Assembly: GCA_029851415.1 (NCBI GenBank)
Contig: CM056744.1
Coordinates: 64,970,172 to 65,034,171, forward strand
Direction of reading: 5' to 3'
Source: Eretmocerus hayati
Taxonomy: Eukaryota > Arthropoda > Insecta > Hymenoptera > Aphelinidae
DNA length: 64,000 nucleotides
Shown: positions 8,491-38,590 of the stretch, piece by piece
Layout: the number at the start of each line of letters is the position of its first letter
Numbering within the stretch: the stretch's first letter is position 1
Program-made: the position numbers and the translations under genes
The notes under the pieces: generated by a model
What the model saw: only the letters and a program-made list of their open reading frames with translations
Database searches by the model: none
Told to the model about the DNA's origin: nothing

Positions 8491-9610
8491 CCCTGCTGCG
8501 AAAGTTCGATTGGATTCGAGTAAAATACATCCAATCGTTCTGAATCTAGAATCTTATGATGAATTTGAAACATGACTTTCAGGATTGAGGAAGATTGGAG
8601 TTCAATAACGACCAATTATGTTGATCATGATTCGAACAGTATAGACCAATCTTCACCAATGCAGACTTTTTGCATGGAAAGTGAGATTGCCAATCAATCT
8701 CAATACTTACTGCCAGTATTCAGAAGTCAATAATCTATCTGTATGAATGCTGATTCCCTTGATAGAATATCGCGATTCCAATCTGTGTCAATGCCATGAA
8801 ACAGCATTGACATGCTATGTGTCCTATCTTCTTCAATCAATTCCAACACTGTTTTTCAGTAATGGAAACATCGAGATCTCAATCCGCCTCAATCGACCTC
8901 AATACTGACTGGAAGCATTGGAGACCTTAAACTCTATTTATCTGAATCGATTTGAATACTGGATATCATTATTAGAATTCCGAAATCCTATCTGCCTCCA
9001 TCGATTCGAATACTATTTTTCAGTATTGGGAACATCGAGATCTCAATCCCCCTCAATCGACCTCAATACTGACTTTCAGTCATTATTACAAATCAACGTC
9101 TTACATATACATCACTCACATTACAGCTAAGCTTTCAATACAATCCAATACTCATTCTAATCATGATCGCATTAACATATCATCGCATTACATAAGTAAA
9201 CGCTATTTGGAGGTTCTGTCACTCATCAGTCTTATATAGGAACAGGAGAGATGGTTCGTCGCTTGCGAGAAAGCAATCCCATGATATTTGGATGCAAACC
9301 GAGATGGTCATCGAAACGCCACCTAGCGTCAGACACTCGAATTCATCGGCCTCAATCGATTCCAATACTAACTTTCAGGAATGGGAATTTCGATATCTCA
9401 CACGACGTCAATCGGTCCCAATACTGGCTATGAGCATTGACGAGTTTATTTATCGTCCTTAATCGATTTGAATGCTGAATATCAGTATTGGGGACTGGGA
9501 ATCCTATCTGTCCCAGTCGATTCCGGTACTGTTGTCTAGTATTGGGAACATCGAGATCTCAACCCACTTTAATCGACTCAATACTGACTGTGAGTATCGG
9601 AGTCATTATA
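8262..9610 (+). repeat. Inverted duplication, left arm (1.35 kb)
   Basis: This arm is the reverse complement of 24382-25730; coordinates of matching points always sum to 33992. It includes 229 bp of the DUF8207-like gene, the left terminus of the 28.5 kb insertion and the first ~1.1 kb of satellite. I noticed only one mismatch, near 8363, so the duplication is recent and happened after the insertion. Confidence 0.9.
8520..9610 (+). repeat. Satellite family 1 (AATCGATT-rich, ~164-bp unit), first block
   Basis: Diverged tandem units share motifs such as CAATACTGATTTTCAGCATTG-like segments, CCCCAATCGATTCCAGTACT and GAACATCGAGATCTCAATCC. The same family occurs at 23783-25500 (inverted), 26351-26976 and 28417-29960. 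In the last block the repeated ATGCTGAATATCAG motif recurs about every 162-165 bp. Confidence 0.8.
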
Positions 9611-10072
9611 CACGGTCATTCAAAACTATAGGTAAGCCCGGAAAGGGGTTGGAGATCTTGCTTGCCCGGTCCCAATCGCGTAGGCAAAATGAGGATTGGG
9701 GCCCTGGTCATTTTGAGAATCAAATTTGAATGCCGTCTTGTTTTGAAGCCTCGACCGTCTCGCGCACGCGTCTCCCCAGCTCTTGCGTTGGCGTCTCGCG
9801 TCTCGCGTCCGTTGCTTTTCCTCGATTGCATTCCGTCGCCGCGACGAGCAATCTTGCGAGAGTGAAAAGTAAGCCTAACAGTCGCGTGGTCGTACCTAAT
9901 GCGAAGATTGCTCGTCGCAGCGACGAATTGCAATTGATTGCAATCGAGAAAAAGCAGCCGGAGACACGAGACGCGAGACGCTTGTGTACTTATGAGAGGT
10001 TATGGTCCGCTTGTATTTTCCGTTCGTGGCTGCTGTATTTTTGTTCCAAGTCATTCGTAATGACATCTTTTC
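9611..10072. repeat. Non-satellite spacer with an imperfect foldback
   Basis: This interval separates satellite family 1 from family 3. It contains a foldback. The segment at about 9789-9855 (TCTCGCGTCTCGCGTCCG ... GACGAGCAATCTT) is the reverse complement, with small differences, of about 9904-9985. Open frames here reflect the foldback and I see no gene. Confidence 0.6.
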
Positions 10073-12010
10073 TGAATCAAACTACATACTGATAAACCTT
10101 TTGTCTCTTTCATTCACACGATTTTGATGACGGGGATGTCGAATAGTCAATGCCGATCGATATCCAATGACAGAAATTCGCGAGTAGATGACTCGATGCT
10201 CGAGCTGTAGTCGACGCTCGCTAAGATTCAAAGCAGACGCGTAAGAAATTCCGGATTTTGATCAATGTACAGACTAATTAACAGTTCGACATTTTCACTC
10301 ACACGATTTTGATGACGGGGATGTCGAATAGTCAATGCCGATCGATATCCAATGACCGAAATTCGCGAGAAGATGACTCGATGCTCGAGCTGTAGTCGAC
10401 GCTCGCTAAGATTCAAAGCCGACGCGTAAGAAATTGCGGATTTTGATCGAATTACCCACTAATTGACATTTCGTCTCTTTCATTCACACGATTTTGTCAC
10501 CGGAGATGTTGGGAAGTCAATCCTCATTGATATCCAGTGACAGAATTTCGCGAGGAGGTGACTCGATGCTCGAGCTGTAGTCGACGCTCACTAAGATTCA
10601 TACCAGACGTAAGAAATTGCGGATTTTGATAAAACTACCGACTAATTGACATTTCGTCTTTTCCATTCACACTATTTTGTCACCGGAGATGTCATAAAGT
10701 CAATGCTGATCGATATTTGATGACCGAAAATCGCGAGGAGATGACTCGATGCTCGGGCTGTAGTCGACGCTCGCTAAGATTGAGAGCAGACGTGAGAATT
10801 TTCAGATTTTGATCAAAGGATACACTAATAAACCATTTGTCTCTTTCATTCACACTATTTTGTCCCCGGAGAAGTTATGAAGTCAATGCCGATCGATATC
10901 CAATTACAGAAATTCGCGAGGAGATGACTCGATGCTCGGGCTGTAGTCGACGCTCGCTAAGATTCGGAGCAGATGTAAGGTATTTGCGGATTTAGATCAA
11001 AGTACAGACTCATCGATAACTTGTTTCGTTCATTCACACGATTTTGTCGCCGGAGATGTTGGGAAGTCAATTCTCATTGATATCCAGTGACAGAAATTCG
11101 CGAGGAGATGACTCGATGCTCGAGCTGTAGTCGACGCTCGCTGAGATTGAGAGCAGACGTGAAAATTTTCGGATGTTGATCAAAGTACAGACTCATCGAT
11201 AACTTGGTTCGTTCATTCACACGATTTTGTCCCCGGACAAGTCATGAAGTCAATGCCGATCGATATTTAATTACCGAAATTCGCGAGGAGATGACCCGAT
11301 GCTCGGGCTGTAGTCGACGCTCGCTAAGATTCAGAGCAGATGTAAGGAATTCGCGGATTTTGATCAAACTACACACTAATAAACCATTTGTCCCTTTCAT
11401 TCACACTATTTTCCCCCGGAGAAGTCATGAAGTCAATGCCGATCGATATCCAATTACAGAAATTCGCGAGGAGATGACCCGATGCTCGGGCTGTAGTCGA
11501 CGCTCGCTAAGATTCAGAGCAGACGTGAGAATTTGCGGATTTAGATCAAACTACAGACTCATCGATAACTTGTTTCGTTCATTCACACGATTTTGTCGCC
11601 GGAGATGTTGGGAAGTCAATTCTCATTGATATCCAATTACAGAAATTCGCGAGGAGATGACTCGATGCTCGGGCTGTAGTCGACGCTCGCTAAGATTCGG
11701 AGCAGATGTGAGGTATTTGCGGATTTGGATCGATTTAAACACTTATAAACCATTTGTCTCTTTCATTCACACTATTTTGTCCCCGGACAAGTCATGAAGT
11801 CAATGCCGATCGATATTGAATTACCGAAATTTGCGAGGAGATGACTCGATGCTCGGGCTGTAGTCGACGCTCGCTAAGATTCAGAGCAGACGTGAGAATT
11901 CGCGGATTTTGATCAAACTACAGACTAATTTGGGACTTGTCTCTCTCACTCACACGATTTTGTTGATGGAGTTAACGTAAAGTCAATGCTTATCGATATC
12001 TTATAATAGA
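10073..12010 (+). repeat. Satellite family 3 (~184-bp unit), left block
   Basis: About ten tandem copies. Each copy contains CGCGAGGAGATGACTCGATG, GCTGTAGTCGACGCTCGCTA and a CATTCACACGATTTTGTC-type segment. The spacing between successive CTGTAGTCGACGCT motifs is about 180-187 bp. Confidence 0.9.
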
Positions 12011-12019
12011 GATTCGCGA

Positions 12020-13500
12020 GAAGATCACTTCAGATTCGCGTACGCGAATGTTAAGCTGATTCGCGTACACGGATGCCGAGCTGATTCGCGTGCGCGAGCA
12101 AGCCAAGATTCGCGTACGCGAATGGGAAGCTGATTCGCGTGCGCGAGCAAGTCAAGATTCGCGTGCACGAGCAAGCCAAGATTCGCGTACGTTAATGGGA
12201 AGCTGATTCGCGTGCGCGAGCAAGCACAGATTCGCGGACGCGAATGCCAAGCTGATTCTCGTGCGCGAGCAAGCCGAGATTCGCGTAAGCGAATGTGGAG
12301 CTGATTCGCGTACACGGATGCCGAGCAGATTCGCGTGCGCGAGCAAGCCAAGATTCGCGTACGCGAATGGGAAGCTTATTCGCGTGCGCGAGCAAGCACA
12401 GATTCGCGTACACGAATGCAAAGCTGATTCGCGTGCGCGAGCAAGCACAGATTCGCGTACGCGAAAGCCAAGCTGATTCGCGTGCGCGAGCAAGCACAGA
12501 TTCGCGTACGCGAATGCCAAGCCGATTCGCGTGCGCGAGCAAGCCGAGATTCGCGTACGCGAATGTAAAGCTGATTCGCGTGCGCGAGCGATTCAAATTC
12601 CCAAGTAATTTGGAACTCGCGTATGCTACGATTGGATATCATCATGTGCGCGATCGGCATCTTCTCCTCTAAGGTCTCGCATACGCGGATATGAATCTCA
12701 CTAGTGCATGAAAGCCCATGTGATGCGATCGACACCTCAGTTGATTCGCGTACGTGAACGTGGAGATACTTAGCGTGCGGGAGCGAGCCGAGACTCGCGT
12801 ACGCGGATGGGGAGCTGACTCGCGTGCGCGAGCGAATTATTTTTCCAAGTCGATGGAGTCTTATTCTCTCGACGGTGATGTCGAGAAGTCGATGCGAATC
12901 TCGGCTTGCTCGCGCACGCGAATCGGCTTGGCATTCGCGTACGCGAATCTGTGCTTGCTCGCGCACGCGAATCAGCTTGGCATTCGCGTACGTTAATCTG
13001 TGCTTGCTCGCGCACGCGAATCAGCTTTGCATTCGTGTACGCGAATCTGTGCTTGCTCGCGCACGCGAATCACCTTCCCATTCGCGTACGCGAATCTTGG
13101 CTTGCTCGCGCACGCGAATCAGCTTCCCATTCGCGTACGCGAATCTTGGCTTGCTCGCGCACGCGAATCTGCTCGGCATCCGTGTACGCGAATCAGCTTC
13201 CCATTCGCGTACGCGAATCTCGGCTTGGTCGCGCACGCGAATCAGCTTGGCATACGCGTACGCGAATCTGTGCTTGCTCGCGCACGCGAATCAGCTTGGC
13301 ATCCGCGTACGCGAATCTGTGCTTGCTCGCGCACGCGAATCAGCTTCCCATTCGCGTACGCGAATCTTGGCTTGCTCGCGCACGCGAATCAGCTTCCCAT
13401 TCGCGTACGCGAATCTTGGCTTGCTCGCGCACGCGAATCAGCTCGGCATCCGTGTACGCGAATCAGCTTCACATTCGCGTACGCGAATCTGAAGTGATCT
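12020..13500. repeat. Core array of ~49-bp units with TTCGCGTACGCGAA palindromes
   Basis: Units alternate ATTCGCGTACGCGAAT and ATTCGCGTGCGCGAGCAAGC. TTCGCGTACGCGAA is itself a perfect 14-bp palindrome. Orientation flips near 12755, where about 200 bp of different sequence (roughly 12590-12900) forms the centre. The array is extremely CpG-rich. Its long Arg/Ser/Ala open frames are a by-product of the repeat. Confidence 0.9.
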
Positions 13501-13504
13501 TCTC

Positions 13505-16215
13505 GCGAATCCTTATTATAAGATATCGATAGGCATTGACTTTACGTTAACTCCACCAACAAAATCGTGTGAGTGAGAGAGACAAGTCCCAAATTAGTCT
13601 GTAGTTTGATCAAAATCCGCAAATTCTCACATCTGCTCTGAATCTTAGCGAGCGTCGACTACAGCCCGAGCATCGAGTCATCTCCTCGCGAATTTCTGTA
13701 ATTGGATATCGATCGGCATTGAATTCATAACTTCTCCGGGGTCAAAATAGTGTGAATGAAAGAGACAAATGGTTTATCAGTGTGTAGTTTGATCAAAATC
13801 CGCGAATTCCTTACATCTGCTCTGAATTTTAGCGAGCGTCGACTACAGCCCGAGCGTCGGGTCATCTCCTCGCGAATTTCGGTAATCCAATATCGATCGG
13901 CATTGACTTCATGACTTGTCCGGGGACAAAATAGTGTGAATGAAAGAGACAAATGGTTTATAAGTGTTTGAATCGATCTAAATCCGCAAATACTTCACAT
14001 CTGCTCCGAATCTTAGCGAGCGTCGACTACAGCCCGAGCATCGAGTCATCTCCTCGCGAATTTCTGTGATTGGATATCAATGAGAATTGACTTCCCAACA
14101 TCTCCGGCGACAAAATCGTGTGGATGAACGAAACAAGTTATCGATGAGTCTGTAGTTTGATCAAAATCCGCAAATTCTCACGTCTGCTCTGAATCTTAGC
14201 GAGCGTCGACTACAGCCCGAGCATCGGGTCATCTCCTCGCGAATTTCTGTGATTGGATATCGATCGGCATTGAATTCATAACTTCTCCGGGGACAAAATG
14301 GTGTGAATGAAAGAGACAAATGGTTTATTAGTGTGTAGTTTGATCAAAATCAGCGAATTCCTTACATCTGCTCTGAATCTTAGCGAGCTTCGACTACAGC
14401 CCGAGCATCGGGTCATCTCCTCGCGAATTTCTGTAATTGGATATCGATCGGCATTGAATTCATAACTTCTCCGGGGACAAAATAGTGTGAATGAAAGAGA
14501 CAAACGGTTTATTAGTGTGTAGTTTGATTGAAATCCGCAAATTCGGTACATCTGCTCTGAATCTCAGCGAGCGTCGACTACAGCTCGAGCATCGAGTCAT
14601 CTCCTCGCGAATTTCTGTCACTGGATATCAATGAAAATTGACTTCCCAACATCTCCGGTGACAAAATCGTGTGAATGAACGAAACAAGTTAACGATGGGT
14701 CTGTACTTTGATCGAAATCCGAAAATTCTCACGTCTGCTGTCAATCGAGCATCAAGTCATCTCCTCGCGATTTTCGGTCATCAAATATCGATCAGCATTG
14801 ACTTTATGACATCTCCGGCGACAAAATAGTGTGAATGGAAAAGACGAAATGTCAATTAGTCGGTAGTTTTATCAAAACCCGCAATTTCTTACGTCTGGTA
14901 TGAATCTTAGCGAGCGTCGACTACAGCTCGAGCATCGAGTCACCTTCTCGCGAAATTCTGTCACTGGATATCAATGAGGATTGACTTCCCAACATCTCCG
15001 GTGACAAAATCGTGTGAATGAAAGAGACGAAATGTCAATTAGTGGCTAATTTGATCAAAATCCGCAATTTCTTACGCGTCGGCTTTGAATCTTAGCGAGC
15101 GTCGACTACAGCTCGAGCATCGAGTCATCTTCTCGCGAATTTCGGTCATTGGATATCGATCGGCATTGACTATTCGACATCCCCGTCATCAAAATCGTGT
15201 GAGTGAAAATGTCGAACTGTTAATTAGTCTGTACATTGATCAAAATCCGGAATTTCTTACGCGTCTGCTTTGAATCTTAGCGAGCGTCGACTACAGCTCG
15301 AGCATCGAGTCATCTACTCGCGAATTTCTGTCATTGGATATCGATCGGCATTGACTATTCGACATCCCCGTCATCAAAATCGTGTGAATGAAAGAGATAA
15401 AAGGTTTATTAGTATGTAGTTTGATTAAAATCTGCAAATCCCTCACATCTGCTCTGAATCTCAGCGAGCGTCGACTACAGCTCGAGCATCGAGTCATCTT
15501 CTCGCGAATTTCTGTAATTGGATATCGATCGGCATTGAATTCATAACTTCTCCGGGGACAAAATAGTGTGAATGAAAGAGACAAATGGTTCATCAGTGTG
15601 TAGTTTGATCAAAATCCGCGAATTCCTTACATCTGCTCTGATTTTTAGCGAGCGTCGACTACAACCCGAGCATCGGGTCATCTCCTCGCGAATTTCGGTA
15701 ATTCAATATCGATCGGCATTGACTTCATGACTTCTCCGGGGACAGAATAGTGTGAATAAAAGAGACAAATGGTTTGTTAGTGTGTAGTTTTATCAAAATC
15801 CGCGAATTCCTTACATCTGCTCTGAATCTTAGCGAGCGTCGACTACAGCCCGAGCATCGGGTCATCTCCTCGCGAATTTCTGTAATTTGATATCGATCGG
15901 CATTGACTTCATAACTTCTCCGGGGACAAAATAGTGTGAATGAAAGAGACAAATGGTTTATTAGTGTGTACTTTGATCAAAATCCGAAAATTCTCACGTC
16001 TGCTCTCAATCTTAGCCAGCGTCGACTACAGCCCGAGCATCGAGTCATCTCCTCGCGATTTTCGGTAATCAAATATCGATCAGCATTGACTTTATGACAT
16101 CTCCGGTGACAAAATAGTGTGAATGGAAAAGACGAAATGTCAATTAGTCGGTAGTTTTATCAAAATCCGCAATTTCTTACGTCTGGTATGAATCTTAGCG
16201 AGCGTCGACTAAGAT
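13505..16215 (-). repeat. Satellite family 3, right block (inverted)
   Basis: About fourteen to fifteen ~184-bp copies of the same unit as 10073-12010, in the opposite orientation. The block runs about 790 bp past the end of the palindrome partner, so the right block has gained units. It ends abruptly after a partial GCGAGCGTCGACTA motif near 16210. Confidence 0.9.
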
Positions 16216-18330
16216 CCATGGTACATGAAAGGCTCATCTCGGGCGTGAAAAATCCTCGCGTGCGGAAAAATTCTCAGCTTAGCGTGCGCGAGACCCAACA
16301 TCAAGACTCCAGCAGTTCGACATGACCACTGGCATTCCTCGCGTGCGCGAGCCTTCTCCAACTATACGTGTGCGAAGCTCAGAATGTGAGGCTTATCTCA
16401 GTCGTAGAAACTTCTCACGTGCGCGGAAAATTCCCAACCGCGAGCTCGAGCTTAAAAATTGAAATTTTAGAATTCACCTCGACCATAGGAATGTCTCGTG
16501 TGCGCGAAAATTGCACACTGAGTGTACTCAAAGCCCGGAATCATAAGCTCATGTTGGCCATGGAAAATCCTCCCAACTTCGCGTACGCGAGGTACAACAT
16601 CAGAGGCTTACCTCGGACGTTGAAAATTCTCGCGTGTGCCAAAAATTCTAAATTAGCGTGCGCGAGGCTCGATATCGAAACTTCAGCAGTTCACCTCGAA
16701 CATGGGAATTTCCCGCGCACGAGAGATTTACCACACAAATTGTACGCGAGGCCTGAAATCAGAAGCTCGAGGCGCGCGAGAAAATCTCAACTTAGCGTAC
16801 GGGAAACTCAAGGTGCAGGATTCATTTTGCTCAAGGAAATTGCTCGCGTGCGTAAGACCCATTACCAGAAGCTCCTTTCGGTTGTTTTGCGTGCGAAATT
16901 CTTTTTTCTCAAGTATCAAATGGCGAAAAATCACTAAATTAGCGTGCGCGAGGCTCATCGAAACTTTAACAGTTCAGCTCGACCAAATTACCGTGCTCGA
17001 GGCCCAACATAAAAGGCTTACTTCGGGCGTGAAAAATCCTCGCGTGCGCGAAAAATTCTCAGCTTAGTGTGCGCGAGACCCAACATTAAGACTCGAACAG
17101 TTCGACTTGACCATTGGAATTCCTCGCGTGCGCGAGCCTTCCCGAACAATACCTGTGCAAAGCTTAGAATGTGAGGCTTATCTCAGTCGTAGAAAATTCT
17201 CACGTGCGCGGAAAATTCCCAACTTGGCGTGCGCGATCCTAAATATCGAAACTTCAGAAGTCCACCTTGACGATACGAATTTCTCGCGTGCTTGAAGATG
17301 ACCACACTGAATGTACGTGAGGCTCAGAATCATAAGCTCATGTCGGCCATGGGGAATTCTCGCGTGCGCAAACATGCCCAACTCAACGTACGCGAGGCAC
17401 AACATCAAAACTTTAGCAGTTCATCTCGACCAAGGGAATCCCTCGCGTGCGTGGGCATTCTACAACTAAGCGTACGCGAAGCTCAAGAACATGATCGTAT
17501 CTCAGCCGTGAAAATTTCTCGCATGCGCGAAGAATTTCCAACTTAACGTGCGTGAGGCCCAACATCAGAGGCTTACCCCGAACGTAGAAATTTCTCGCGT
17601 GAGCGGAAAATTCCCAACTAAGCGTGCGCGAGGCTCAACATCAAAATTTTCGCATTTCACCTCGACCATGGGAATTTCTCGTGTGCACGAAAATTGCACA
17701 CTGAGTGTACTCGAGGGCCGGAATCATGAGCTCAAAGCGTGCGAGAAATTCCAAACTTAGCGGGTGCGAGGCCAACATCAGAAGCTCATCTCGGTCTCGC
17801 GTACACTCAGTTGCGAATCTTTCCGCGCACGCAAGAATTTTCCACAGCCAAGAGAAGCAGCTCCTAATAATGCGTCTCGCGTAAGCTGATCCGGAAAAGT
17901 CTCGTGCACGCGTTAAATTTCCATGATCGAAATGAAGTACCTAATTTGGGTCTTGTGTACGCTGAGCTGGGAAATTTTGCGCGCACCTGAAAATTTACCT
18001 TGATCAAGAGGAGCTTCTGATGTCGGATCCCGCGTAGGCTAAGTTGGGGTACTTTCCTTGCACGCGAGAATTCCCCAAAGCCGAGAGAAGCTTCTGATGC
18101 GTGTGCGAGAGAATTTCTTCCATGGTCGAAGTTAAGTCCCGAATTTGGTCTCGCGTATGCTAAGCTGGGAAATTTCTCGCGGGCGCGAGAATTTTCCCCG
18201 GCTGATCTGGGGTCTCGCGTGAGCCAAGTTGGAAACTCGCACACGCGAGAATTCACCACGGCCGAAAAGAGCTCCTGGTGTTGGGCCTCGCGCACGCGAG
18301 AAATCCACCCGGGCTCTCTCGAGAGAAGGT
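16216..18330. repeat. Satellite family 4 (CTCGCGTGCGCGA-type), with orientation switch
   Basis: Diverged units contain GAAAATTCTCGCGTGCGCGA, AGCGTGCGCGAGGC and CAGTTCACCTCGACCATGGG. They lie in one orientation to about 17800 and mostly inverted from about 17800 to 18330. Open frames in this stretch lack domain features and show the repeat period. Confidence 0.7.
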
Positions 18331-19340
18331 CTATTTCCCGTTTATGGGATTCTGCGTACACGAAACGGCTGTCTCGCCTGCGCTGATTAGGCCGTAATCG
18401 TGGTAGGCACTTCACACCGAGCACTTCCTGACATGTACCAGGCTGTCTTCCCTTTAAGCAGATTTTCACTCTTTCACCGGCGATTCGGGAGAAAAACGGC
18501 ACTTTGGTGCTCCATCATCGCCGAGAAGACATCGCCCAGCCAGTATTACTGCGCACGACTACATTCAAGCTCACCTGTGATCACGAGCATTCGATTGCAG
18601 AGCATACGACAACGACACCAAATGTTAGCGTCATTGGCTCAGCTAGCTGCCAACTGAGTACTGTGCACCAGCTCTCGGCATGAGCGATGTGTACTCGACG
18701 ACGATGATGCACCAGAGCGCCATACCTCTCCAAATGGCCGGTCTACATGACTAAAAACATTCTGCAAGGACGTGAGCACTCCATGAGTGTTGTGGGGTGC
18801 ACTCAATACTCGCAGACGAGGGAAAAATGAGCAACGACGAGAGTGATTGTGGCATGCTGCTGAACTAGTCACGGCTACACTATCAATTAGAAATCACCAA
18901 ACACGTCACACTCGTAGAAATCACTTTCCAATGATGCCGGGCTCTCGTCCCTGCAGGAAAATTGTCGACACATCCGCAGATAATCCACGCGAAGGATGGA
19001 CACTCTGGTTCTTCATCGCCGCCGAATACACATCGCGCGACCTAGAGGCAAACGGTGGCCGAGTTCTCGAGCTGATTTTGTAATTTGATGCACACCGGGT
19101 CGCAACAATAACAAAGCCGACGACGCAAGCCTTGACTTCTGCGGGCGTCTGCTTTGCAGCATTGCCGCTGATCATGGGTCGAGGTTAACTCGTACGACTT
19201 CTGCGCAAATGAGAGGCGCATCAATACACGATTTAGCAATAGACCGGTTTATGCGTGACCTGCCGTTGCCGACTTTGCCGTATTATGCTGCCGGGATAAT
19301 TTCGAGCTCTCTTTACTATTCAATACACATAACCTCGAAA
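18331..19340. other. Non-satellite interval inside the insertion
   Basis: About 1 kb of mixed composition. Two segments (about 18490-18530 and 18995-19035) resemble each other (CACTYTGGTKCTYCATC, GCCGA, ACATCGC), suggesting an old internal duplication. I recognise no coding motif, RNA gene or element end. Confidence 0.4.
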
Positions 19341-19344
19341 GCAT

Positions 19345-19565
19345 TACACTAATCATTACATATTGTTTATGTAATGATTAGTGGTAAATCATTACACAAC
19401 AAACGATTGCCGCCAAATTTCAAACATTACAAATGTAATGATAAAAGTGACTTTTTCTATTGAAAGTTACAAAATCTGAAAATTATTACAAAACTTCTTG
19501 AAAAACTTCTCTGAAAATACAAAATTTTTTCTAACTCCCTGTTACGGTATGTACACACCTTTTGA
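19345..19565. repeat. AT-rich terminal-type block, copy 1
   Basis: Begins with a perfect 16-bp inverted repeat (19347-19362 and 19368-19383, CACTAATCATTACATA) and ends ATGTACACAC. Related blocks occur at about 23540-23775 and 26108-26345 in the same orientation. All three share ATTACA-rich stretches, AAAGTTACAAATTCTGA-type and TACAAATTTTT-type segments and the GTACACAC end. Each is followed directly by a satellite or palindrome arm. Confidence 0.6.
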
Positions 19566-19573
19566 AACACGGT

Positions 19574-24381: not shown

Positions 24382-25730
24382 TATAATGACTCCGATACTC
24401 ACAGTCAGTATTGAGTCGATTAAAGTGGGTTGAGATCTCGATGTTCCCAATACTAGACAACAGTACCGGAATCGACTGGGACAGATAGGATTCCAAGTCC
24501 CCAATACTGATATTCAGCATTCAAATCGATTAAGGACGATAAATAAACTCGTCAATGCTCATAGCCAGTATTGGGACCGATTGACGTCGTGTGAGATATC
24601 GAAATTCCCATTCCTGAAAGTTAGTATTGGAATCGATTGAGGCCGATGAATTCGAGTGTCTGACGCTAGGTGGCGTTTCGATGACCATCTCGGTTTGCAT
24701 CCAAATATCATGGGATTGCTTTCTCGCAAGCGACGAACCATCTCTCCTGTTCCTATATAAGACTGATGAGTGACAGAACCTCCAAATAGCGTTTACTTAT
24801 GTAATGCGATGATATGTTAATGCGATCATGATTAGAATGAGTATTGGATTGTATTGAAAGCTTAGCTGTAATGTGAGTGATGTATATGTAAGACGTTGAT
24901 TTGTAATAATGACTGAAAGTCAGTATTGAGGTCGATTGAGGGGGATTGAGATCTCGATGTTCCCAATACTGAAAAATAGTATTCGAATCGATGGAGGCAG
25001 ATAGGATTTCGGAATTCTAATAATGATATCCAGTATTCAAATCGATTCAGATAAATAGAGTTTAAGGTCTCCAATGCTTCCAGTCAGTATTGAGGTCGAT
25101 TGAGGCGGATTGAGATCTCGATGTTTCCATTACTGAAAAACAGTGTTGGAATTGATTGAAGAAGATAGGACACATAGCATGTCAATGCTTTTTCATGGCA
25201 TTGACACAGATTGGAATCGCGATATTCTATCAAGGGAATCAGCATTCATACAGATAGATTATTGACTTCCGAATACTGGCAGTAAGTATTGAGATTGATT
25301 GGCAATCTCACTTTCCATGCAAAAAGTCTGCATTGGTGAAGATTGGTCTATACTGTTCGAATCATGATCAACATAATTGGTCGTTATTGAACTCCAATCT
25401 TCCTCAATCCTGAAAGTCATGTTTCAAATTCATCATAAGATTCTAGATTCAGAACGATTGGATGTATTTTACTCGAATCCAATCGAACTTTCGCAGCAGG
25501 GATGGCGAACTACCAGAAAATTTTAAACGTATCACATGTTCATCGAAAAAGATTCCTTCATGATGGTGAACTCCGCAGAAGCAAGAGTCAAAAATTTGAG
25601 AACATCATCGAACCTCTATTTGGTCCGGAAAAAATTGGCAGATCACTCACAAGTAGGACTACGGAGATATACTGGGATAACCCGAACCAGTTAGTTGAAA
25701 AACTTCAGATTCTAATGAATGATAGAGGTG
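24382..25730 (-). repeat. Inverted duplication, right arm (1.35 kb)
   Basis: Reverse complement of 8262-9610. It carries an internal copy of the left terminus of the 28.5 kb insertion (at about 25491-25501) and 229 bp of the interrupted gene. It ends at 25730, just before the second 618-bp duplication copy. Confidence 0.9.
25502..25730 (+). pseudogene. Duplicated fragment of the DUF8207-like gene
   Basis: This is a copy of the first 76 codons of the C-terminal half at 8490-8262, in the opposite orientation. One amino acid differs (FGPEKIG versus FGPKKIG). The frame then runs out of the homologous part at 25730 into the 618-bp repeat. It is a passenger of the inverted duplication and cannot encode a functional product. 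Confidence 0.85.
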
Positions 25731-25734
25731 TGTT

Positions 25735-26350
25735 TGTTGATCAAAAATTTGCTGTCACGAAATCAAACTATTATCTTCAGATAAAGCAAAAAATAGTATC
25801 AGTAACCCTTTCGCTGCTCAGTATACAGCCCTCTACCCGCTTTCACGACTTTCCACTACTAACGAAAACTTCCACACGTATGTAGAGGCACCCGTATCGG
25901 TGTGGAGGTTGTGCTTTTGTGTGCGTAAGACATTGTTATGACCCCCTGTTTTGTGAGATGGCGTTATTACACTCTTCTTCTCGCGGGGCTCCGTGGCAAG
26001 ATTACGAGAAGAGAGAGCCAAAAAACAGAACGAGAATCACTATATGTGAAGGAACTGCTTAAATCACAACACTACGCGCAAATTCAACGCATAACCTTCA
26101 TGGCGAAACAATAATCATTACATAACAAACACGTGTTTATTATGTGATGGTTGGAAGGTAAAACATTACGCGTGTGAAGTTGGCACCCACTTTCAATCAT
26201 TCCGAATGTAATGATTGAGAATCATATTTCTATCAAAAGTTACAAATTCTGACAGCTATCACGAATTTTTACAAATAACTCGTTTAAATATACAAATTTT
26301 TCCCTACATCCCGGTTATGGCATGTACACACTTAATGAATCAGACTGTAT
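25735..26350 (+). repeat. Direct duplication copy 2 (616 bp)
   Basis: Partner of 23165-23782 with a few substitutions and small indels; the hairpin arm near 25862 has lost bases. It abuts the inverted-duplication arm on the left and satellite family 1 on the right. Confidence 0.85.
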
Positions 26351-26976
26351 GATATTTACCTGAATCGAATTGAATGCTAAATATCAGTATTGAGGACTTG
26401 AAATCCTATCTGCCCCAATCGATTTCAGTACTGTTTTCCAGTATTGGGGACATCGAGATCTCAACCCACTTTAATTGATCTCAATACTGACTGTAAGTAT
26501 TGGAGCCCTTATATCCCAATAACCTGAATCGATTTGAGTTCTGTCTCTCAGTATTGGGTAGATCGCTATCTCAATCAACTTCAATCGATCTCGAAACTAA
26601 ATGAAAACATAAGTGACCTTATTATATCCTATCTACTTGAATCGATTTGAATGTTGAAAATCAGTATTGAGGACTTGGAATCCTATCTGCCCCAATCGAT
26701 TCCAGAACCGTTTTTCACTATTGGAAACATCGGGTTCTCAATCCGCTTCAATCGATCTCAATACTGGGTTTCAGCATTGAAGACCTTATATCATATTCAC
26801 GTGGGTCGGATTTAATGCTGAATATTAGTATTGAGGACATGAAATCCGATCTGCCCCAATCGATCCCAGAACTGTTCCTCAGTATTGGGAACATCGAGAC
26901 TCAGTCTGCTTCAATCGATCTCGATACATACTGATTTTCAGCATTGCAGATCTTATATCCTATTCACCTGGAACGG
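26351..26976 (+). repeat. Satellite family 1, third block
   Basis: AATCGATT-family units with CAGTATTGGGAACATCGAGA-type segments. Interrupted at 26980 by the probable solo LTR and resuming at 28413. Confidence 0.8.
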
Positions 26977-26980
26977 AATG

Positions 26981-28412
26981 TGTAACGTGGGGCAAGATGG
27001 ATCAGGGATAATCTGGAACATTCACCTGAAATACTATACCCACCCAACGCTACCTCATTCATTTTAGGCCGGATCAGGTCAGGGTCAGGGACCCCGCGCC
27101 ACGAGGGGCGGGACAGAGGGGCAAATTGGGAACACCTGAAAATCGCGAAAATATTCTGCGGACACTGTATATATATATCGTATTGGAATAATCACTCTCC
27201 GGATTTACGAAATTACAAACGGAATTTATTGCTATTAGGAACTCTCATTTCGAGGCACGCAGGCCAATAAAACTAATTACAACGCCATCTGTGGCGAAAA
27301 CTGTCATGAAATCGTTCCTTTGTCCAATCACTCCAAGAAAATCACAATATCAAAAAGTCAATTTACAGCGGAAACACCCATGTACATTGGCGCGAAACTA
27401 TTCACTGCACCATTTCGGCGGAATCACCCATATACACTGTGGGCGGAGCTAACGTGAGGGGTGGGAGCTATCCCCCAGCCGGCGGACCCGTCCCTCTCCA
27501 ACTCTCCGCGCCTTCGTCTCCGGAAGTCAGAATGATGACACAAAATGGCCGCTTTAACGACCCGCGTGGCTCAGCATGGCCAAAACGTGCAAGCGAATAT
27601 CGGCACGGGGAGTTGGAGGAACACGGTTGCGACGCGATGGGTCGGCGGACAAGAAGGACACACCGCGTCGCGAGCTGGGGAGTAGGCCACCCGGTAGCCC
27701 TGGACACGACTCTCCGCCCGGGGGGGTCACGACAAGGGTGGATACACTCTGGGGCAGACGAAAGGCCACTCACCGTGTCCGTTTGCGTTGTCCGGGTGCC
27801 CGCGAAACAGGTTGCACTGCTGCGTCACTGCTGCTCTGCTAGCTGGATCAGTGGTAGGTCTGCTGCTGCAGCTCTCTCTCTCTCTCTCGCTCTCTAGCCC
27901 AGACCGGGTCACCCTCCAAGAGCTGGGTACCATGGGCGAGATGTGGTCGTGTGGGAGGCCACGTGTCAGCACACGCTAACACAAGTCTTGGCACTTACAC
28001 TATGTTCACCCACACACCCGCGACTCCTTGTTCACCCGCGGCGCGATCACTGGACCCGTCCTGGGTCACTACTCCTGGAGCACGCGGCGAATTTAGGGGC
28101 GCGATATACAGGGAGGTCTATCTATGCCGGCAGCCATCCCAAGATTGCCGGCCGGCGACGCGCGGCGCGGCTTCCTCTAGCCCGCGCAAGCGCCGCGCCG
28201 CCCGGCTTGGTGGGCTGGAAGGGTCTGCCACCACGCTGGCGGCGGGAACCATCAGCCCGTTCGAAACGTCGTCGTCGTCTTCTTCTCGTCACCTCGGGCA
28301 CCTCAACAAAAAAGTATACACACAAAAATCAGACCTTGATCTACTTGGCCCGAGGTGACGACGAGAGCTCCTGTGGGGCGAGACAGAACGTGCTGCAACG
28401 TTGCACGTTGCA
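26981..28412. mobile_element. Probable solo LTR (1.43 kb) with 4-bp target duplication
   Basis: The segment starts TGTAACGTGG and ends GTTGCA. It is flanked by AATG on both sides (26977-26980, 28413-28416). The satellite unit on either side joins correctly if the segment and one AATG are removed. It contains an AATAAA-like signal near 27267, a TATATATA stretch near 27170 and a GC-rich right half with a (CT)n run near 27870. No gag or pol is present. Open frames within it show no known motif. A TG..CA insertion of another kind is possible. Confidence 0.6.
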
Positions 28413-28416
28413 AATG

Positions 28417-29960
28417 GATGCTGGATATCAGTATTCAGAACTTGCAATCTTATCTGCCCCAATCGATTCCATTAGTGTTTTTCAGAATTGGAAACATCGA
28501 GATCTCAATCAGCTTCAATCGATTTCAATACTGATTTCCAGCATTGCAGACCTTATATCCTATTTACCTGAATCGGATTGACTGCTGAATATCAGTATTG
28601 AGGACTTGAAATTCTATTTACCCCAATCAATTCCAGAACTGTTTTTCAGTATTAGAAACATCGGGTTTTCAATCCGCTCCAATCGATCTCAATACTGATG
28701 TTCAGCATTGCAGACCTTACATGATATTTACCCGAATCGAATTGAATGCTGAATATCAGTATTGAGGACTTGAAATCCTATCCTTCCCAATCGATTTCAG
28801 TACTGTTTTCCAGTATTGGGAACATCGGAATCTCGACCCACTTTAATCGATCTCAATACTGACTGTAAGTATTGGAGCCTTTATATCTCAATAACCTGAA
28901 TCGATTCGAGTACTATCACTCATTATCCGATAGATCGCTATCTCAATCCAATCCAATCGATCCCAATACTAAATGTAAGCATAAGTAACCTTATAATATC
29001 CTGTCTACTTGAATCGACTTGGATGTTGAAAATCAGTATTGGAGAATTGAGATCCTTTCTGCCCCAACTCATTCCAATACCGTTTCCAAGTATTGGGAAC
29101 ACTGAGATCCCACTTCAATCGATCTTAATACTGATTTTCAGCATCGGAAACCTTACATCCTATTCACCTGAATCAAATTGAATGCTGAATATCAGTATTG
29201 AGGTCTTGAGGTCTTATCTGCCCCAATCCAATCCAGTACTGTTTTTCAGTCATGGGAACATCGGGATCTCAATCCGCTTCAATCGATCTCAATGGTCATT
29301 TTCAGCATTGCAGACTTCATATCGTATTCATCTGGAGCGAATTGAATGCTGAATATCATTATCAAGGACTTGAGATTTTGTCTTCCCCAATCGATTCTAG
29401 TACTGTTTTCCAGTATCGGGAACATTGAGTTCTCAATAAGCTTCAATCGATCTCAATACTTACTTTTAGCATTGCAGACCTCATATCATATTTACCTGAA
29501 TCGGTTTGAATGCTGAATATCAGTATTGAGGACTTGAGATCTTATCTGCCCCAATCGATTCCGGTCCTATCTACCTCAGTCGATCCCAATACTGTATACC
29601 AGTATTGAAAACCCCCGAGATCTCAATCCGCTTCAATCGATCTCAATACTGTCTTTCAGCATCTTAGACCTTATAACCCATTCGCCCGAATCGATTAGAA
29701 TGCTATATATCAGATTGGGGATGGGAAGTCCTATCTGCCTCAATAGATGGAGATACTGACCTCTAACATTGGAAACAGTATATCCTATCTACGTCAATAT
29801 ACCTGGATGATGATTGTTAGTATTGAGGACTTGAAAACCTATCTGCCCCGATCGATTCCAGTACCGTCTCCCAGTATCGGAAACATCGAGATCTCAATCC
29901 ACCCCAAACGATTTCAATACTGATTTTCAGCATTGCAGACCTTATAACCCCTTCACCTGA
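28417..29960 (+). repeat. Satellite family 1, fourth block
   Basis: Roughly nine ~164-bp units. Typical segments are ATGCTGAATATCAGTATTGA, CTGCCCCAATCGATTCCAGT and CTTCAATCGATCTCAATACT. Confidence 0.85.
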
Positions 29961-32900
29961 CCAATAACAGAACTCATCTACAGGCCATTCCAATTCTGCC
30001 CAGCAGTATTCAATTTGATTCAGATATATGAAATCAGGAAGAGTTCAATACTGATTCTGAGTATTGAGAGGGATAGAATAACCATGCACTCACGATCTCA
30101 ATTCGATTCTGTAGTATTCATCTCGATTAGTCAATGACGCAAAGAGTGATTGGTTCATCATTGGCATCAATTGACGCAGTCAATTCAATGCTGCCTGGCA
30201 TGATTCAGACCGATAGCAAAACTTATCCTCAGACCTTACCAATCCCGCTCAGCAGTATTGAATTCGATTCAAATGTATGAAACCTAGAGGAGTTCAATAC
30301 TGATTGTGAGTATTGAGGAGGATAGAATGACCATGCACCCACGATTCCAATCCGATTCTGTAGTATCCATCTCGACCGGTCAATCACGCAATGAGTGATT
30401 GGGTCATCATTGGAATCGATTGACGGAGCCGACTGAATGCTGCCCGGCAGGATTCAGATCGATAGCGAAACTTATCCTCAGAGCGTACCAATCCTGCTCA
30501 GCAGTATTAAATCCGATTAGAATACATGGAATTCAGAGGAGTTCAATACCGATTGTGAGTATTGGGGAGGATAGAGACCATGCTTCCACGATTTCAATTC
30601 CATCCTATAGTATTCAGCTCGATTGGTCAATAACGCAACGAGTGATTGGGTTATCATTGAAATCGATCCACACCGTCAATTCAATGCTGCCTGGCAGGAT
30701 TCAGACCGATAGCAAAACTCATCTTCAGGCCGTTCCAATCCTGATCAGCAGTATTGAATTCGATTGAAAAATCCGTAACCTAGAGGAGCTCAATACTGAT
30801 TTTGAGTATTGAGGAGGATCGAATGATCATGCACCTACGATTCCAATCCGATCCTGTAGTATTCATCTCGATTGGTCAATCACGCAATGAGTGATTGGGT
30901 CATCATTGGAATCGATTGACGGAGTCGGCTCAATGCTGCCTGGCAGGATTCAGACTGATAGCAAAACTCATCTCCAGGCTGTTCCAATCCTGCTCAGCAG
31001 TAGTGAATTCGATTGAATATATGAAACCTAGAGGAGTCGAATACTGATATCGAGTATTGAGAAGGATAGAATAACCATGTACCCGCGATTCCAATCCGAT
31101 TCTGTAGTATTCATCTCGATTGGTCAATCACGCAATGAGTGATTGGGTCATCATTGAAATCGATTGACAGAGTCGGCTCAATGCTGCCTGTCAGGATTCA
31201 GACCGATAGCAAAACTTATCCTCAGGCCTTACCGATCCCGCTCAGCAGTATTGAATTCGAATCAAATATATTAAACCTAGAGGAGTTCAATACTGATTGT
31301 GAGTATTGAGGAGGATAGAATGACCATGCACCCACGATTCCACTCCGATTCTGTAGTATCCATCTCGATCGGTCAATCACGCAATGAGTGATTGGTTCAT
31401 CATTGAAATCGATTGACGGAGCCGACTGAATACTGCCCGGCAGGATTCAGATAGATAGCGAAACTTATCCTCAGTGTACCAATCCTGCTCAGCAGTATTG
31501 AATCTTATTAGAATACATGGAATCCAGAGGAGTTCAATACTGATCTTAAGTATTGAGGAGGATAGAGACCATGCTTCCACGATTTGAATTCCATCCTGTA
31601 GTATTCAGTTCGATTGGTCAATGACGCAACGAGTGATTGGGTCATCATTGGAATCGATTGACGGAGCCGACTGAATGCTGCCCGGCAGGATTCAGATCGA
31701 TAGCGAAACTTATCCTCAGAGCGTACCAATCCTGCTCAGCAGTGTTAAATCCGATTAGAATACATGGAATTCAGAGGAGTTCAATACCGATTGTGAGTAT
31801 TGAGGAGGATAGAGACCATGCTTCCACGATTTCAATTCCATCCTATAGTATTCAGCTCGATTGGTCAATAACGCAACGAGTGATTGGGTTATCATTGAAA
31901 TCGATCCACACCGTCAATTCAATGCTGCCTGGCAGGATTCAGACCGATAGCAAAACTCATCTTCAGGCCGTTCCAATCCTGCTCAGCAGTATTGAATTCG
32001 ATTGAAAAATCCGTAACCTAGAGGAGCTCAATACTGATTTTGAGTATTGAGGAGGATCGAATGATCATGCACCTACGATTCCAATCCGATCCTGTAGTAT
32101 TCATCTCGATTGGTCAATCACGCAATGAGTGATTGGGTCATCATTGGAATCGATTGACGGAGTCGGCTCAATGCTGCCTGGCAGGATTCAGACTGATAGC
32201 AAAACTCATCTCCAGGCTGTTCCAATCCTGCTCAGCAGTAGTGAATTCGATTGAATATATGAAACCTAGAGGAGTCGAATACTGATATCGAGTATTGAGA
32301 AGGATAGAATAACCATGTACCCGCGATTCCAATCCGATTCTGTAGTATTCATCTCGATTGGTCAATCACGCAATGAGTGATTGGGTCATCATTGAAATCG
32401 ATTGACAGAGTCGGCTCAATGCTGCCTGTCAGGATTCAGACCGATAGCAAAACTTATCCTCAGGCCTTACCGATCCCGCTCAGCAGTATTGAATTCGAAT
32501 CAAATATATTAAACCTAGAGGAGTTCAATACTGATTGTGAGTATTGAGGAGGATAGAATGACCATGCACCCACGATTCCACTCCGATTCTGTAGTATCCA
32601 TCTCGATCGGTCAATCACGCAATGAGTGATTGGTTCATCATTGAAATCGATTGACGGAGCCGACTGAATACTGCCCGGCAGGATTCAGATAGATAGCGAA
32701 ACTTATCCTCAGTGTACCAATCCTGCTCAGCAGTATTGAATCTTATTAGAATACATGGAATCCAGAGGAGTTCAATACCGATCTTAAGTATTGAGGAGGA
32801 TAGAGACCATGCTTCCACGATTTGAATTCCATCCTGTAGTATTCAGTTCGATTGGTCAATGACGCAACGAGTGATTGGGTCATCATTGGAATCGATTGAC

Positions 32901-35900
32901 GGAGCCGACTGAATGCTGCCCGGCAGGATTCAGATCGATAGCGAAACTTATCCTCAGAGCGTACCAATCCTGCTCAGCAGTGTTAAATCCGATTAGAATA
33001 CATGGAATTCAGAGGAGTTCAATACCGATTGTGAGTATTGAGGAGGATAGAGACCATGCTTCCACGATTTCAATTCCATCCTATAGTATTCAGCTCGATT
33101 GGTCAATAACGCAACGAGTGATTGGGTTATCATTGAAATCGATCCACACCGTCAATTCAATGCTGCCTGGCAGGATTCAGACCGATAGCAAAACTCATCT
33201 TCAGGCCGTTCCAATCCTGCTCAGCAGTATTGAATTCGATTGGAATATATGGAACCTGGAGGAGTTTAATACTGATCGTGAGTATTGAGGAGGATAGAAT
33301 GACCATGCACCCACGATTCCAATCCGATTCTGTAGTATTCATCTCGATTGGTCAATCACGCAACGAGTGATTGGGACATCATTGGAATCGATTGACGGAG
33401 TCGGCTCAATGCTGCCTGGCAGGATTCAGACCGATATCAAAACTCATCTTGAGGCCGTTCCAATCCTGCTCAGCAGTATCGAATTCGATTGAAAAATCCG
33501 TAACCTAGAGGAGCTCAATACTGATTTTGAGTATTGAGGAGGATCGAATGATCATGCACCTACGATTCCAATCCGATCCTGTAAGATTCATCTCGATTGG
33601 TCAATCACGCAATGAGTGATTGGGTCATCATTGGAATCGATTGACGGAGTCGGCTCAATGCTGCCTGGCAGGATTCAGACTGATAGCAAAACTCATCTTT
33701 AGGCTGTTCCAATCCTGCTCACCAGTAGTGAATTCGATTGAATATATGAAACCTAGAGGAGTCGAATACTGATATCGAGTATTGAGAAGGATAGAATAAC
33801 CATGTACCCGCGATTCCAATCCGATTCTGTAGTATTCATCTCGATTGGTCAATCACGCAATGAGTGATTGGGTCATCATTGAAATCGATTGACAGAGTCG
33901 GCTCAATGCTGCCTGTCAGGATTCAGACCGATAGCAAAACTTATCCTCAGGCCTTACCGATCCCGCTCAGCAGTATTGAATTCGAATCAAATATATTAAA
34001 CCTAGAGGAGTTCAATACTGATTGTGAGTATTGAGGAGGATAAAATGACCATGCACCCACGATTCCACTCCGATTCTGTAGTATCCATCTCGATCGGTCA
34101 ATCACGCAATGAGTGATTGGTTCATCATTGAAATCGATCGACGGAGCCGACTGAATACTGCCTGGCAGGATTCAGATAGATAGCGAAACTTATCCTCAGT
34201 GTACCAATCCTGCTCAGCAGTATTGAATCCGATTCGAATACATGGAATCCAGAGGAGTTCAATACCGATTTTAAGTATTGAGGAGGATAGAGACCATGCT
34301 TCCACGATTTGAATTCCATCCTGTAGTATTCAGTTCGATTGGTCAATGACGCAACGAGTGATTGGGTCATCATTGGAATCGATTGACGGAGCCGACTGAA
34401 TGCTGCCCGGCAGGATTCAGATCGATAGCGAAACTTATCCTCAGAGCGTACCAATCCTGCTCAGCAGTATTAAATCCGATTAGAATACATGGAATTCAGA
34501 GGAGTTCAATACCGATTGTGAGTATTGAGGAGGATAGAGACCATGCTTCCACGATTTCAATTCCATCCTATAGTATTCAGCTCGATTGGTCAATAACGCA
34601 ACGAGTGATTGGGTTATCATTGAAATCGATCCACACCGTCAATTCAATGCTGCCTGGCAGGATTCAGACCGATAGCAAAACTCATCTTCAGGCCGTTCCA
34701 ATCCTGCTCAGCAGTATTGAATTCGATTGGAATATATGGAACCTGGAGGAGTTTGATACTGATCGTGAGTATTGAGGAGGATAGAATGACCATGCACCCA
34801 CGATTCCAATCCGATTCTGTAGTATTCATCTTGATTGGTCAATCACGCAATGAGTGATTGGGACATCATTGGAATCGATTGACGGAGTCGGCTCAATGCT
34901 GCCTGGCAGGATTCAGACTGATAGCAAAACTCATCTTCAGGCTGTTCCAATCCTGCTCAGCAGTAGTGAATTCGATTGAATATATGAAACCTAGAGGAGT
35001 CGAATACTGATATCGAGTATTGAGAAGGATAGAATAACCATGTACCCGCGATTCCAATCCGATTCTGTAGTATTCATTTCGATTGGTCAATCACGCAATG
35101 AGTGATTGGGTCATCATTGAAATCGATTGACAGAGTCGGCTCAATGCTGCCTGTCAGGATTCAGACCGATAGCAAAACTTATCCTCAGGCCTTACCGATC
35201 CCGCTCAGCAGTATTGAATTCGATTCAAATGTATGAAACCTAGAGGAGTTCAATACTGATTGTGAGTATTGAGGAGGATAGAATGACCATGCACCCACGA
35301 TTCCAATCCGATTCTGTAGTATCCATCTCGACCGGTCAATCACGCAATGAGTGATTGGTTCATCATTGAAATCGATTGACGGAGCCTACTGAATACTGCC
35401 CGGCAGGATTCAGATAGATAGCGAAACTTATCCTCAGTGTACCAATCCTGCTCAGCAGTATTGAATCCGATTAGAATACATGGAATCCAGAGGAGATCAA
35501 TACCGATTTTAAGTATTGAGGAGGATAGAGACCATGCTTCCACGATTTGAATTCCATCCTGTAGTATTCAGTTCGATTGGTCAATGACGCAACGAGTAAT
35601 TGGGTTATCATTGAAATAGATTCACACCGTCAATTCAATACCACCTGGCAGGATTCAGACCGATAGCAAAACTTATTTTCAGGCCGTTCTAATCCTGCTC
35701 AGCAGTATTGAATTCGATTGAATATACGAAACCTAGAGGAAATGAATACTGATATCGAGTATTGAGAAGGATAGAATAACCCTGCACCCGCGATTCCAAT
35801 CCGATTCTGTAGTATTCATTTCGAACGGTCAATCACGCAATGAGTGATTGGGTCATCATTGAAATCGATTGACGCAGTCGACTCAATGCTGCCCGGCAGG

Positions 35901-36370
35901 ATTCAGACCGATAGCAAAACTCATCCTCAGAGCGTACCAATCCTGCTCAGCAGTATTGAATTCGATTGAAATACATGGAATTCAGAGGAGTTCAATACCG
36001 ATTGTAAGTATTGAGAAGGAAAGAGACCATGCTCCCACGATTTGAATTCCATCCTATAGTATTCAGTTCGATTGGTTAATGACGCAACGAGTGATTGTGT
36101 TATCATTGAAATAGATTCACACCGTCAATTCAATGCCGCTGGTCAGGATTCAGACCGATAGCAAAACTCATCTTCAGGCCGTTCCAATCCTGCTCAGCAG
36201 TATTGAATTCGATTGCAATATATGAAATCTAGAGGAGTTCAATACTGATTGTGAGTATTGAGAGGGATAGAGTAACCATGCACCCACGATTTCAGTTCGA
36301 TTCTCTAGTATTCATCTCGATTGGTCAATCACGCAATAGGTGATTGGAGGATGATTGGAATCGATCCAGG
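29961..36370 (+). repeat. Satellite family 2: ~248-bp units in a 1238-bp higher-order repeat
   Basis: About 26 tandem units contain CAATCACGCAATGAGTGATT, GCTGCCTGGCAGGATTCAGA, CCAATCCTGCTCAGCAGTAT and GAGTATTGAGGAGGATAGA. Landmark variants recur every 1238 bp (for example 30399, 31637, 32875), that is five units. One interval is 1487 bp (32875 to 34362), a six-unit variant. Copies one higher-order period apart are nearly identical, while adjacent units are clearly diverged. Open frames here are repeat artefacts. Confidence 0.9.
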
Positions 36371-36951
36371 GCTAATGACTTGAATCTCTCCATTCATGAT
36401 TGAGACAGATAGGAATGAGCAAGGCTATTATACACCAGTACTGCAGAGAATTACTTGGTTCGATTGATGAATGTTGCAACAATAGTATTCAAAAGGTGAA
36501 ATTCAATCCTGTCATTCGGGATTGGTTAGGATAGATGATTAGTATCGTTTCGCGAATTGAATCAGTTTCTGAAGCATTGATCTCGATAGAGCAGTGGGAG
36601 ACGGGATCCATCATTCAATTAGATTGATTCCAATACTGTATTGCTTCATTCAAACATATTGAACCAGCAAAGATCTTTCATCCATCCATCCGGATCCTAT
36701 CCTATGCTGAATACTAGTATTGGATTTTATTCGCTCACATCAATTCTCATCAACAGTACAGAATTCGATTGGCAGTTGTGATCTCAAATCTACAATTCAG
36801 GATTCAGCTAGATTGGGTCTATGCTCGATTGATCTGCATTGAATCCCAATACTGCTCTCGCCGGTTGAACGATAGAACCGATTGAAATGTATTGATCCCG
36901 ATAGGATTCGATCGGTTTTCAATCTATCCCAATCGATCTTCTGCAGCAGGG
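36371..36951. repeat. Right terminal segment of the 28.5 kb insertion
   Basis: Degenerate AATCGATT-type sequence without a clear period. It ends in the right terminal inverted repeat (TCGATCTTCTGCAGCAGGG). It is comparable in composition to the left end. Confidence 0.6.
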
Positions 36952-36953
36952 AT

Positions 36954-37846: not shown

Positions 37847-37849
37847 TGT

Positions 37850-38542: not shown

Positions 38543-38590
38543 AATAATTTCAGGGGCAACATTCGATTTATAATAAATAATTGAAAATGC

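Follow-up and report, generated by a model that had tools for sequence, protein, structure and literature searches.

Animal transposons of the TRC branch of the CACTA (En/Spm) group are marked by ends that begin with CCC and by target-site duplications of 2 bp (PMC1636069, PMC4298943), and in the accounts available these features are common to SmTRC1 of Schistosoma and the related elements of Tribolium and Aedes (PMC1636069) and to Spongebob (PMC4298943). SmTRC1 is also described as having both a region of tandem repeats and a Transposase_21 gene (PMC1636069). Galileo has been described as having tandem repeats that provide extra transposase sites, and the same has been suggested of Tetris (PMC4079207); the foldback elements Tetris and DAIBAM of Drosophila virilis and D. 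americana are reported to be non-autonomous, to have internal repeats that expand into satellites, and to be tied to inversions (PMC4079207). In Chenopodium, CACTA elements are associated with satellite arrays which the available parts of the reports describe as added to an element with coding sequence or as derived from a piece of the transposase gene (PMC8978399, PMC7320549). The 64,000-bp stretch of the parasitoid wasp Eretmocerus hayati analyzed here (C4:64970172-65034171, “the window”) contains an element, which will be called E, that resembles each of these systems in part. It has the CCC ends and 2-bp duplications of the TRC elements and of Spongebob, a tandem-repeat content like that of SmTRC1, the non-autonomous, satellite-bearing character of Tetris and DAIBAM together with a locus that may have undergone an inversion, and the association with satellite arrays seen in Chenopodium. 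It differs from SmTRC1 in that the copies read are satellite over almost their whole length, no coding part having been found in them; from Tetris, which has long repeat-bearing terminal inverted repeats (TIRs) and duplications of 8-10 bp, in having 23-bp ends, 2-bp duplications and two arrays in a fixed order; and from the Chenopodium elements, whose arrays are tied to coding sequence in one of these two ways. Among the sources returned by a literature search there was no relevant paper on Eretmocerus satellites and no insect element consisting of satellites alone, although this is no proof that such an element is lacking.

The element E is very probably a copy of a DNA transposon family whose body consists mostly of two satellite arrays and which is likely moved by a transposase acting in trans. 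As expected of a TIR transposon, dispersed copies have inverted ends in common, lie in unrelated flanking sequence and are bounded by a target-site duplication. In the window the 23-bp end CCCTGCTGCnnAAGnTCGATTGG occurs at 8491 on the plus strand (left TIR, 8491-8513) and at 36951 on the minus strand (right TIR, A-type, 36929-36951), the two being alike at 20 of 23 positions, with no match in 100 shuffles, and the dinucleotide AT lies on the outer side of each (8489-8490 and 36952-36953). Close inverted identity between the ends is confined to the outer 23-26 bp, with weak similarity over about 320 bp beyond (the inverted comparison of the left and right subterminal parts scored 114, whereas the highest score among 200 shuffles was 78), so that the long inverted terminal repeats characteristic of foldback elements are not found in E.

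A search of the assembly (692,130,109 bp in 17 contigs) for other loci with these ends, which a first-pass annotation of the window had suggested, returned 302 forward and 301 reverse matches to the end pattern, 603 altogether, while the reversed pattern, used as a control, gave 0 and 0; from these end counts we infer a family of about 300 copies. The first 100 ends, which were listed, all lie on contig C1, at positions up to 119.8 Mb. Among them, neighbours within 60 kb form 35 inward-facing pairs (plus then minus) and 5 pairs of the opposite arrangement, and the inward pairs have lengths of 4,150-42,210 bp with a median of 8,557 bp. One T-type and one A-type end are combined in 31 of the 35 pairs, for which the chance probability is about 5e-7 when computed with 57 A and 42 T ends and is little changed by the actual tally of 59 A, 40 T and 1 G. 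The listed ends are unevenly placed on C1, with 90 at 70-120 Mb and 10 at 0-70 Mb, as if gathering towards mid-chromosome. None of the 20 samples of 10 kb taken from C1 and C2 (C3 and C4 lay outside the sample) contained E, and pattern scans of viral contigs for E ends and for a word of the 249-bp repeat gave 0 each. The pattern was also matched by a contig of a bacterial metagenome-assembled genome (L001), which was taken as a chance occurrence, the match to the window being only 26 bp long.

Both flanks were read for nine copies: that in the window, which was picked by the original finding; one on C2, which came from a separate pattern match; four taken as listed (L027-L034); and three picked as short (L035-L037). 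The 2-bp flanks are equal in seven of the nine (AT, TG, TA, TC, CA, TG and AA), an outcome with a chance probability of about 1e-7. The three short copies (4,870, 5,252 and 4,150 bp) are 97-100% covered by homology to the window element, each has arrays of both the 164-bp and the 249-bp type, and their longest stop-to-stop open reading frame (ORF) has 105 codons. The two arrays stand in the same order, between one end and the other with the 164-bp array first, in the core of the window element and in four other copies (C2 and L035-L037). In the four copies of which only the ends were read, one end is followed inward by left-end and 164-bp-type sequence, the other by 249-bp-type sequence; one of these copies, of 18.4 kb, is likely to be long because a 164-bp array fills its middle, the 3 kb read there being 164-bp-type repeat. 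Since the sampled copies consist mostly of satellite arrays instead of genes, satellite DNA has likely been spread by transposition in Eretmocerus hayati.

The C2 copy (C2:72733044-72738649) is particularly informative because 8491 and 36951 are the first and last window bases to which it is homologous, with TG on both flanks, and because the matches listed for it include none to the foreign block, the long terminal repeat (LTR)-like piece or the gene fragment that are found between these positions in the window. This copy contains an insertion of its own (C2:72733826-72735231, L004), 1,406 bp long, which ends in perfect inverted repeats of 22 bp and has CATATA at either flank. From repeat phase, motif content and the uninterrupted C2 copy, the window locus can be dissected into parts, and the 28,461 bp between its outer ends is, as read from the sequence, a composite of several units: E itself, a foreign block X, a solo-LTR-like piece and an inverted duplicate. 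The segments of E (1,120 + 601 + 10,603 bp, the last including the LTR-like piece and a second AATG), X (13,555 + 615 + 4 + 614 bp) and the duplicate (1,349 bp) sum exactly to this length. In E the order is left end, 164-bp array, 249-bp array and right end. The left (T-type) end, made up of the TIR and 164-bp-type repeats, occupies 8491-9610 (+), where C2 homology begins at the first base and a later rearrangement makes the cut at 9610. The 164-bp array, which continues that of the left end as in C2, lies in inverted orientation at 23781-24381 (-), resumes at 26349-26980 (+) at the phase where 23781 stopped, and extends through 28413-29958 (+), with three subunits of about 54 bp in each monomer. 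The 249-bp array follows at 29959-36368 (+), with 25.9 copies in higher-order repeats of 5 or 6 monomers, and the right-end domain, delimited by motifs and C2 homology, at 36369-36951 (+). The motifs CAGTATTG/CAATACTG, AATCGATT and CGATTGG are dense in 8491-9610, 23781-25501, 26349-26980 and 28413-36951 and almost absent from 9611-23780, 25731-26348, 26981-28412 and both flanks, and the first of these occurs at 3.4-11 per kb in the E blocks, 0 in X and the LTR-like piece and 0-0.04 in the flanks. A single 1,652-bp C2 match (83%) crosses both inferred joins of the reordered window element (L|S1 and S1|S2), and none of six junctions in the present order is crossed by a C2 match.

Because both palindromes, the 183-bp and 49-bp satellites and the LTR-like piece are foreign, the element proper is about 10.9 kb long (10,888 bp without the LTR-like piece) and not 28.5 kb. 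The first-pass annotation had described one transposon of the latter length, built of satellites and palindromes and lacking a transposase, whose removal together with one AT would restore the frame of a gene. Its inverted ends, flanking AT, restored frame and lack of a transposase are all borne out, as is the general idea of a non-autonomous TIR element that carries satellite arrays, whose stated refutation, absence of these ends from all other loci, did not come about; the single 28.5-kb unit is not, and the palindromes with the 183-bp and 49-bp satellites, although real, belong to X and not to E. It had also missed a third copy of the TIR at 25501 (-) (25479-25501) and 229 bp of gene sequence, both of which lie in the inverted duplicate at 24382-25730. 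A Pfam scan of all 29 stop-to-stop ORFs of at least 110 aa inside 8491-36951 gave nothing above a family's cut-off and no transposase; several of the ORFs have weak, chance-level matches, and the 249-bp array itself forms open frames of up to 137 aa without a family.

The interrupted gene consists of an open 5' part at 36954-37610 (-), with 219 codons and its first Met at 37535, and a 3' half at 8188-8490 (-), with 100 codons and a stop. In separate searches these align to residues 12-205 and 207-325, respectively, of the Trichogramma brassicae protein P0097; as the halves abut on that protein when AT is counted once, exactly one junction codon (ATG) stands between them. A second protein, P0096, gives the same end-to-end picture, and these two were the only proteins found for the gene among 25 candidates. 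The name DUF8207 comes from their source label and precomputed domain (PF26634), yet the Pfam scan made here gave no match for either protein. Neither gene half reached a family's cut-off in Pfam, a protein search with the 5' half returned nothing at E<=0.001, and a literature search found no paper on DUF8207.

The block X, of about 14.8 kb in total, holds both giant palindromes. Its middle, which is probably inverted (9611-23165, -), includes a palindrome of 183-bp satellite at 10075-16211, with 49-bp repeats at its core, and a second palindrome whose arms (19661-20989 / 21071-22399) are 97% alike. The terminal repeats of X, aligned at 96.6%, are D1 (23166-23780, -, 615 bp) and D2 (25735-26348, +, 614 bp). 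When X-end bases that match by chance are left out, the 164-bp phase ends at 151 before D1 and restarts at 152 after D2, so X entered one 164-bp monomer; the insertion has no clear target duplication, the flanking AT being ambiguous. Only in the inferred order do D1 and D2 form inverted ends that flank a non-coding middle, as in a foldback-like element. Relatives of X were found in two of the 10-kb samples, L021 and L015; the former locus (C2, near 90 Mb) also contains nested palindromes of 96-99.5% at 232-2915. A pattern scan of viral contigs for an X end gave 0. Solo LTRs start with TG, end with CA and have short flanking duplications, and the motif-free segment 26981-28412 is of this form (TG...CA, with AATG at 26977-26980 and 28413-28416).

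The inverted duplicate (24382-25730, -) reproduces 8262-9610 over 1349 bp without gaps and with 4 mismatches (99.7%). Because it carries gene sequence it must have been made after the insertion into the gene, so the locus was rearranged later than that insertion. On its inner side it continues into the 164-bp array at 23781-24381, while the outer copy is cut at 9610, and 4 bp (25731-25734) separate it from D2. An inversion with staggered breaks is reported to place inverted duplicates on either flank of the segment that it turns (PMC3355041), and such an inversion fits the locus. A second scheme that fits is breakage at a hairpin apex located at D2's inner edge: here X, as a foldback, would have broken at its apex, template switching would have produced the 1349-bp inverted copy, and the 13.6-kb middle would have been inserted. 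In its favour, only 4 bp separate the junction 25730/25731 from D2's inner edge, the point at which a hairpin formed by D1 and D2 would open into its loop, and a break at most 4 bp from that edge is a coincidence which a plain inversion leaves unexplained. The scheme nevertheless requires an extra insertion and the loss of one arm, whereas the one-step inversion restores both a continuous 164-bp array and the inverted ends of X at matching phase; apex breakage is thus considered unlikely, though a serious competitor.

The placement of E in the TRC branch of CACTA follows from its CCC ends, found at 99 of the 100 listed ends with one CCA (a count in which the search pattern left only the third base free), and from 2-bp duplications of varied sequence in seven of nine copies. 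It is also consistent with the subterminal direct and inverted repeats expected of such elements, in the form of the dyad subunits of about 54 bp. As no copy with a transposase was found, we infer, rather than observe, both this placement and mobility in trans. A Helitron-like or ISL2EU (PHIS) affiliation has been considered and set aside. Helitrons insert between A and T, the dinucleotide seen at the window copy, but E differs from them in having inverted-repeat ends and duplicated flanks. ISL2EU elements likewise duplicate AT, but their ends usually start with GG, according to the part of the description available (PMC4482050), and the other copies of E have CCC ends and duplicate TG, TA, TC, CA and AA; an affiliation with either group is accordingly improbable.

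Several observations weigh against the transposon account or its details. No copy bearing a transposase was found among the copies read; 4 of the 35 inward pairs are not of the T/A kind; 18 of the 53 minus and 12 of the 47 plus ends listed have no neighbouring partner within 60 kb by this pattern; the 2-bp flanks of two of the nine copies are unequal (TT/AT and AA/GG); and the left end of the C2 copy reads CCT. When the ends of E are compared with those of a Transposase_21-like element lying nearby in the window, the similarity is weak: shuffled sequences equal it in 4 and 5 of 2000 trials at the left end and in 190 and 303 of 2000 at the right. Three subunits of the 54-bp kind fold as hairpins, and respectively 2, 14 and 3 of 200 shuffles equal or exceed them in stability, so that one of the three is matched by 14 shuffles. 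Finally, the evidence consists of the assembly sequence alone.

A different history for the arrays, in which a small miniature inverted-repeat transposable element (MITE) entered the gene and all of the satellites grew in place later, corresponds to the “satellite nursery” that the first-pass annotation had offered as its second option. Local growth did occur, since window monomers 1-21 of the 249-bp array are 0-2.4% from their nearest relatives, mostly 5 or 6 places off, in blocks of 5 or 6 monomers; for monomers 22 and 23 the corresponding distance is 7-8%. The arrays as such are another matter: 249-bp-type monomers number 25.9 in the window, 6.5 in C2 and 7.9, 5.3 and 4.5 in the three short copies, and four copies other than that in the window have both arrays. 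Among 31 monomers compared (25 from the window and 6 from C2), the window's first has the first of C2 as its closest relative and the window's last has the last of C2, in each case outright or in a tie (8.8% and 8.9%). Because the edge monomers match C2 by position and the interior ones are nearly identical to their nearest relatives, the jump is likely to have carried an array which block duplication then enlarged. Both gene halves also remain open although the window monomers differ by 14% on average, and in simulations with 4.5% change per lineage the probability that they remain open without loss of frame is 0.0007, under an assumed 0.15 indels per substitution and a kappa of 2; the simulation thus favours a recent insertion. 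The recent, block-copied interior is what survives of the nursery idea, and growth of all arrays in place is very improbable.

Misassembly, which could have wrongly joined gene halves, satellites and inverted copy, has the slightest probability of all: such errors usually arise in satellite and palindrome sequence and the locus is judged here from the assembly, but the two parts of the gene are contiguous on the matching protein, other loci reproduce the boundaries of the element to the base, and, so far as the published description covers these points, the assembly was built from PacBio HiFi reads and heterozygosity is about 0.01%, against 0.3% divergence of the inverted copy (PMC10482854).

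Under the account of E as a transposon mobilized in trans, a transposase encoded elsewhere in the genome would move it by cut-and-paste. Similarity to the ends is seen in the dyad subunits that compose the 164-bp array and in their relatives within the 249-bp array, and these are putative sites at which the transposase, or a protein assisting it, would bind. Unequal exchange would lengthen or shorten the arrays, and every transposition would plant a ready-made array at a new site. In the window, E would first have jumped into the DUF8207-like gene with a 2-bp AT duplication; the 14.8-kb foldback-like X and the solo-LTR-like piece would have entered its 164-bp array; the 249-bp array would have grown by block duplication; and, after the insertion, a rearrangement, most simply a staggered-break inversion, would have flipped most of X and left the second, inverted copy of 8262-9610. 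A more far-reaching reading, advanced tentatively and with rather less than even confidence, is that E represents a gene-free class of transposon made of its own amplified transposase-binding satellites, in which the arrays would serve as a platform in cis and some 300 copies would replenish satellites genome-wide.

The Transposase_21-like gene mentioned above (39265-41406) lies between inverted repeats of about 160 bp (38584-38741 and 46225-46393), which have CCC near their outer ends and no clean duplication. Eretmocerus hayati QAD02_008019 matches its ORF at 39301-41403 with 100% identity; the gene has no Pfam match of its own, and the one Transposase_21 score obtained, for its relative P0058, falls slightly below the curated cut-off. 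A Gypsy-like gag-pol pair (53045-59225) stands between 729-bp direct repeats of 99.5% identity (51646-52374 and 61317-62044), and 51646-62044 looks like a recent LTR retrotransposon. A tRNA-Ser (GGA) gene (37714-37785) adjoins the 5' end of the interrupted gene, on both sides of which a 31-bp minisatellite is present in inverted orientation (6572-6793 and 37848-38008). An ORF at 459-1874 (-) has an integrase zinc-binding domain; upstream in the same frame is what we take, by eye and without a score, to be an OTU protease motif. Elsewhere in the genome, one sampled 10-kb segment (L020, C2:70,000,001) is filled by 70 copies of a 142-bp satellite.

These results bear on the old question of how satellite DNA reaches many sites in a genome. 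Here the satellites stand in a fixed order between transposon ends, at an inferred 300 or so sites that can be dated and compared with empty sites, so that two questions can be put directly: does array length reflect transposition itself or later exchange at the new site, and does a transposase bind the dyad units? They also call for caution in annotation, because arrays classed as unclassified repeats, a category reported to make up 32.39% of the Eretmocerus hayati genome in the portion of the genome description available (PMC10482854), can be transposons. If the reading of the arrays as a platform is true, transposition itself would be the vehicle by which satellite DNA is planted and replenished across the genome.

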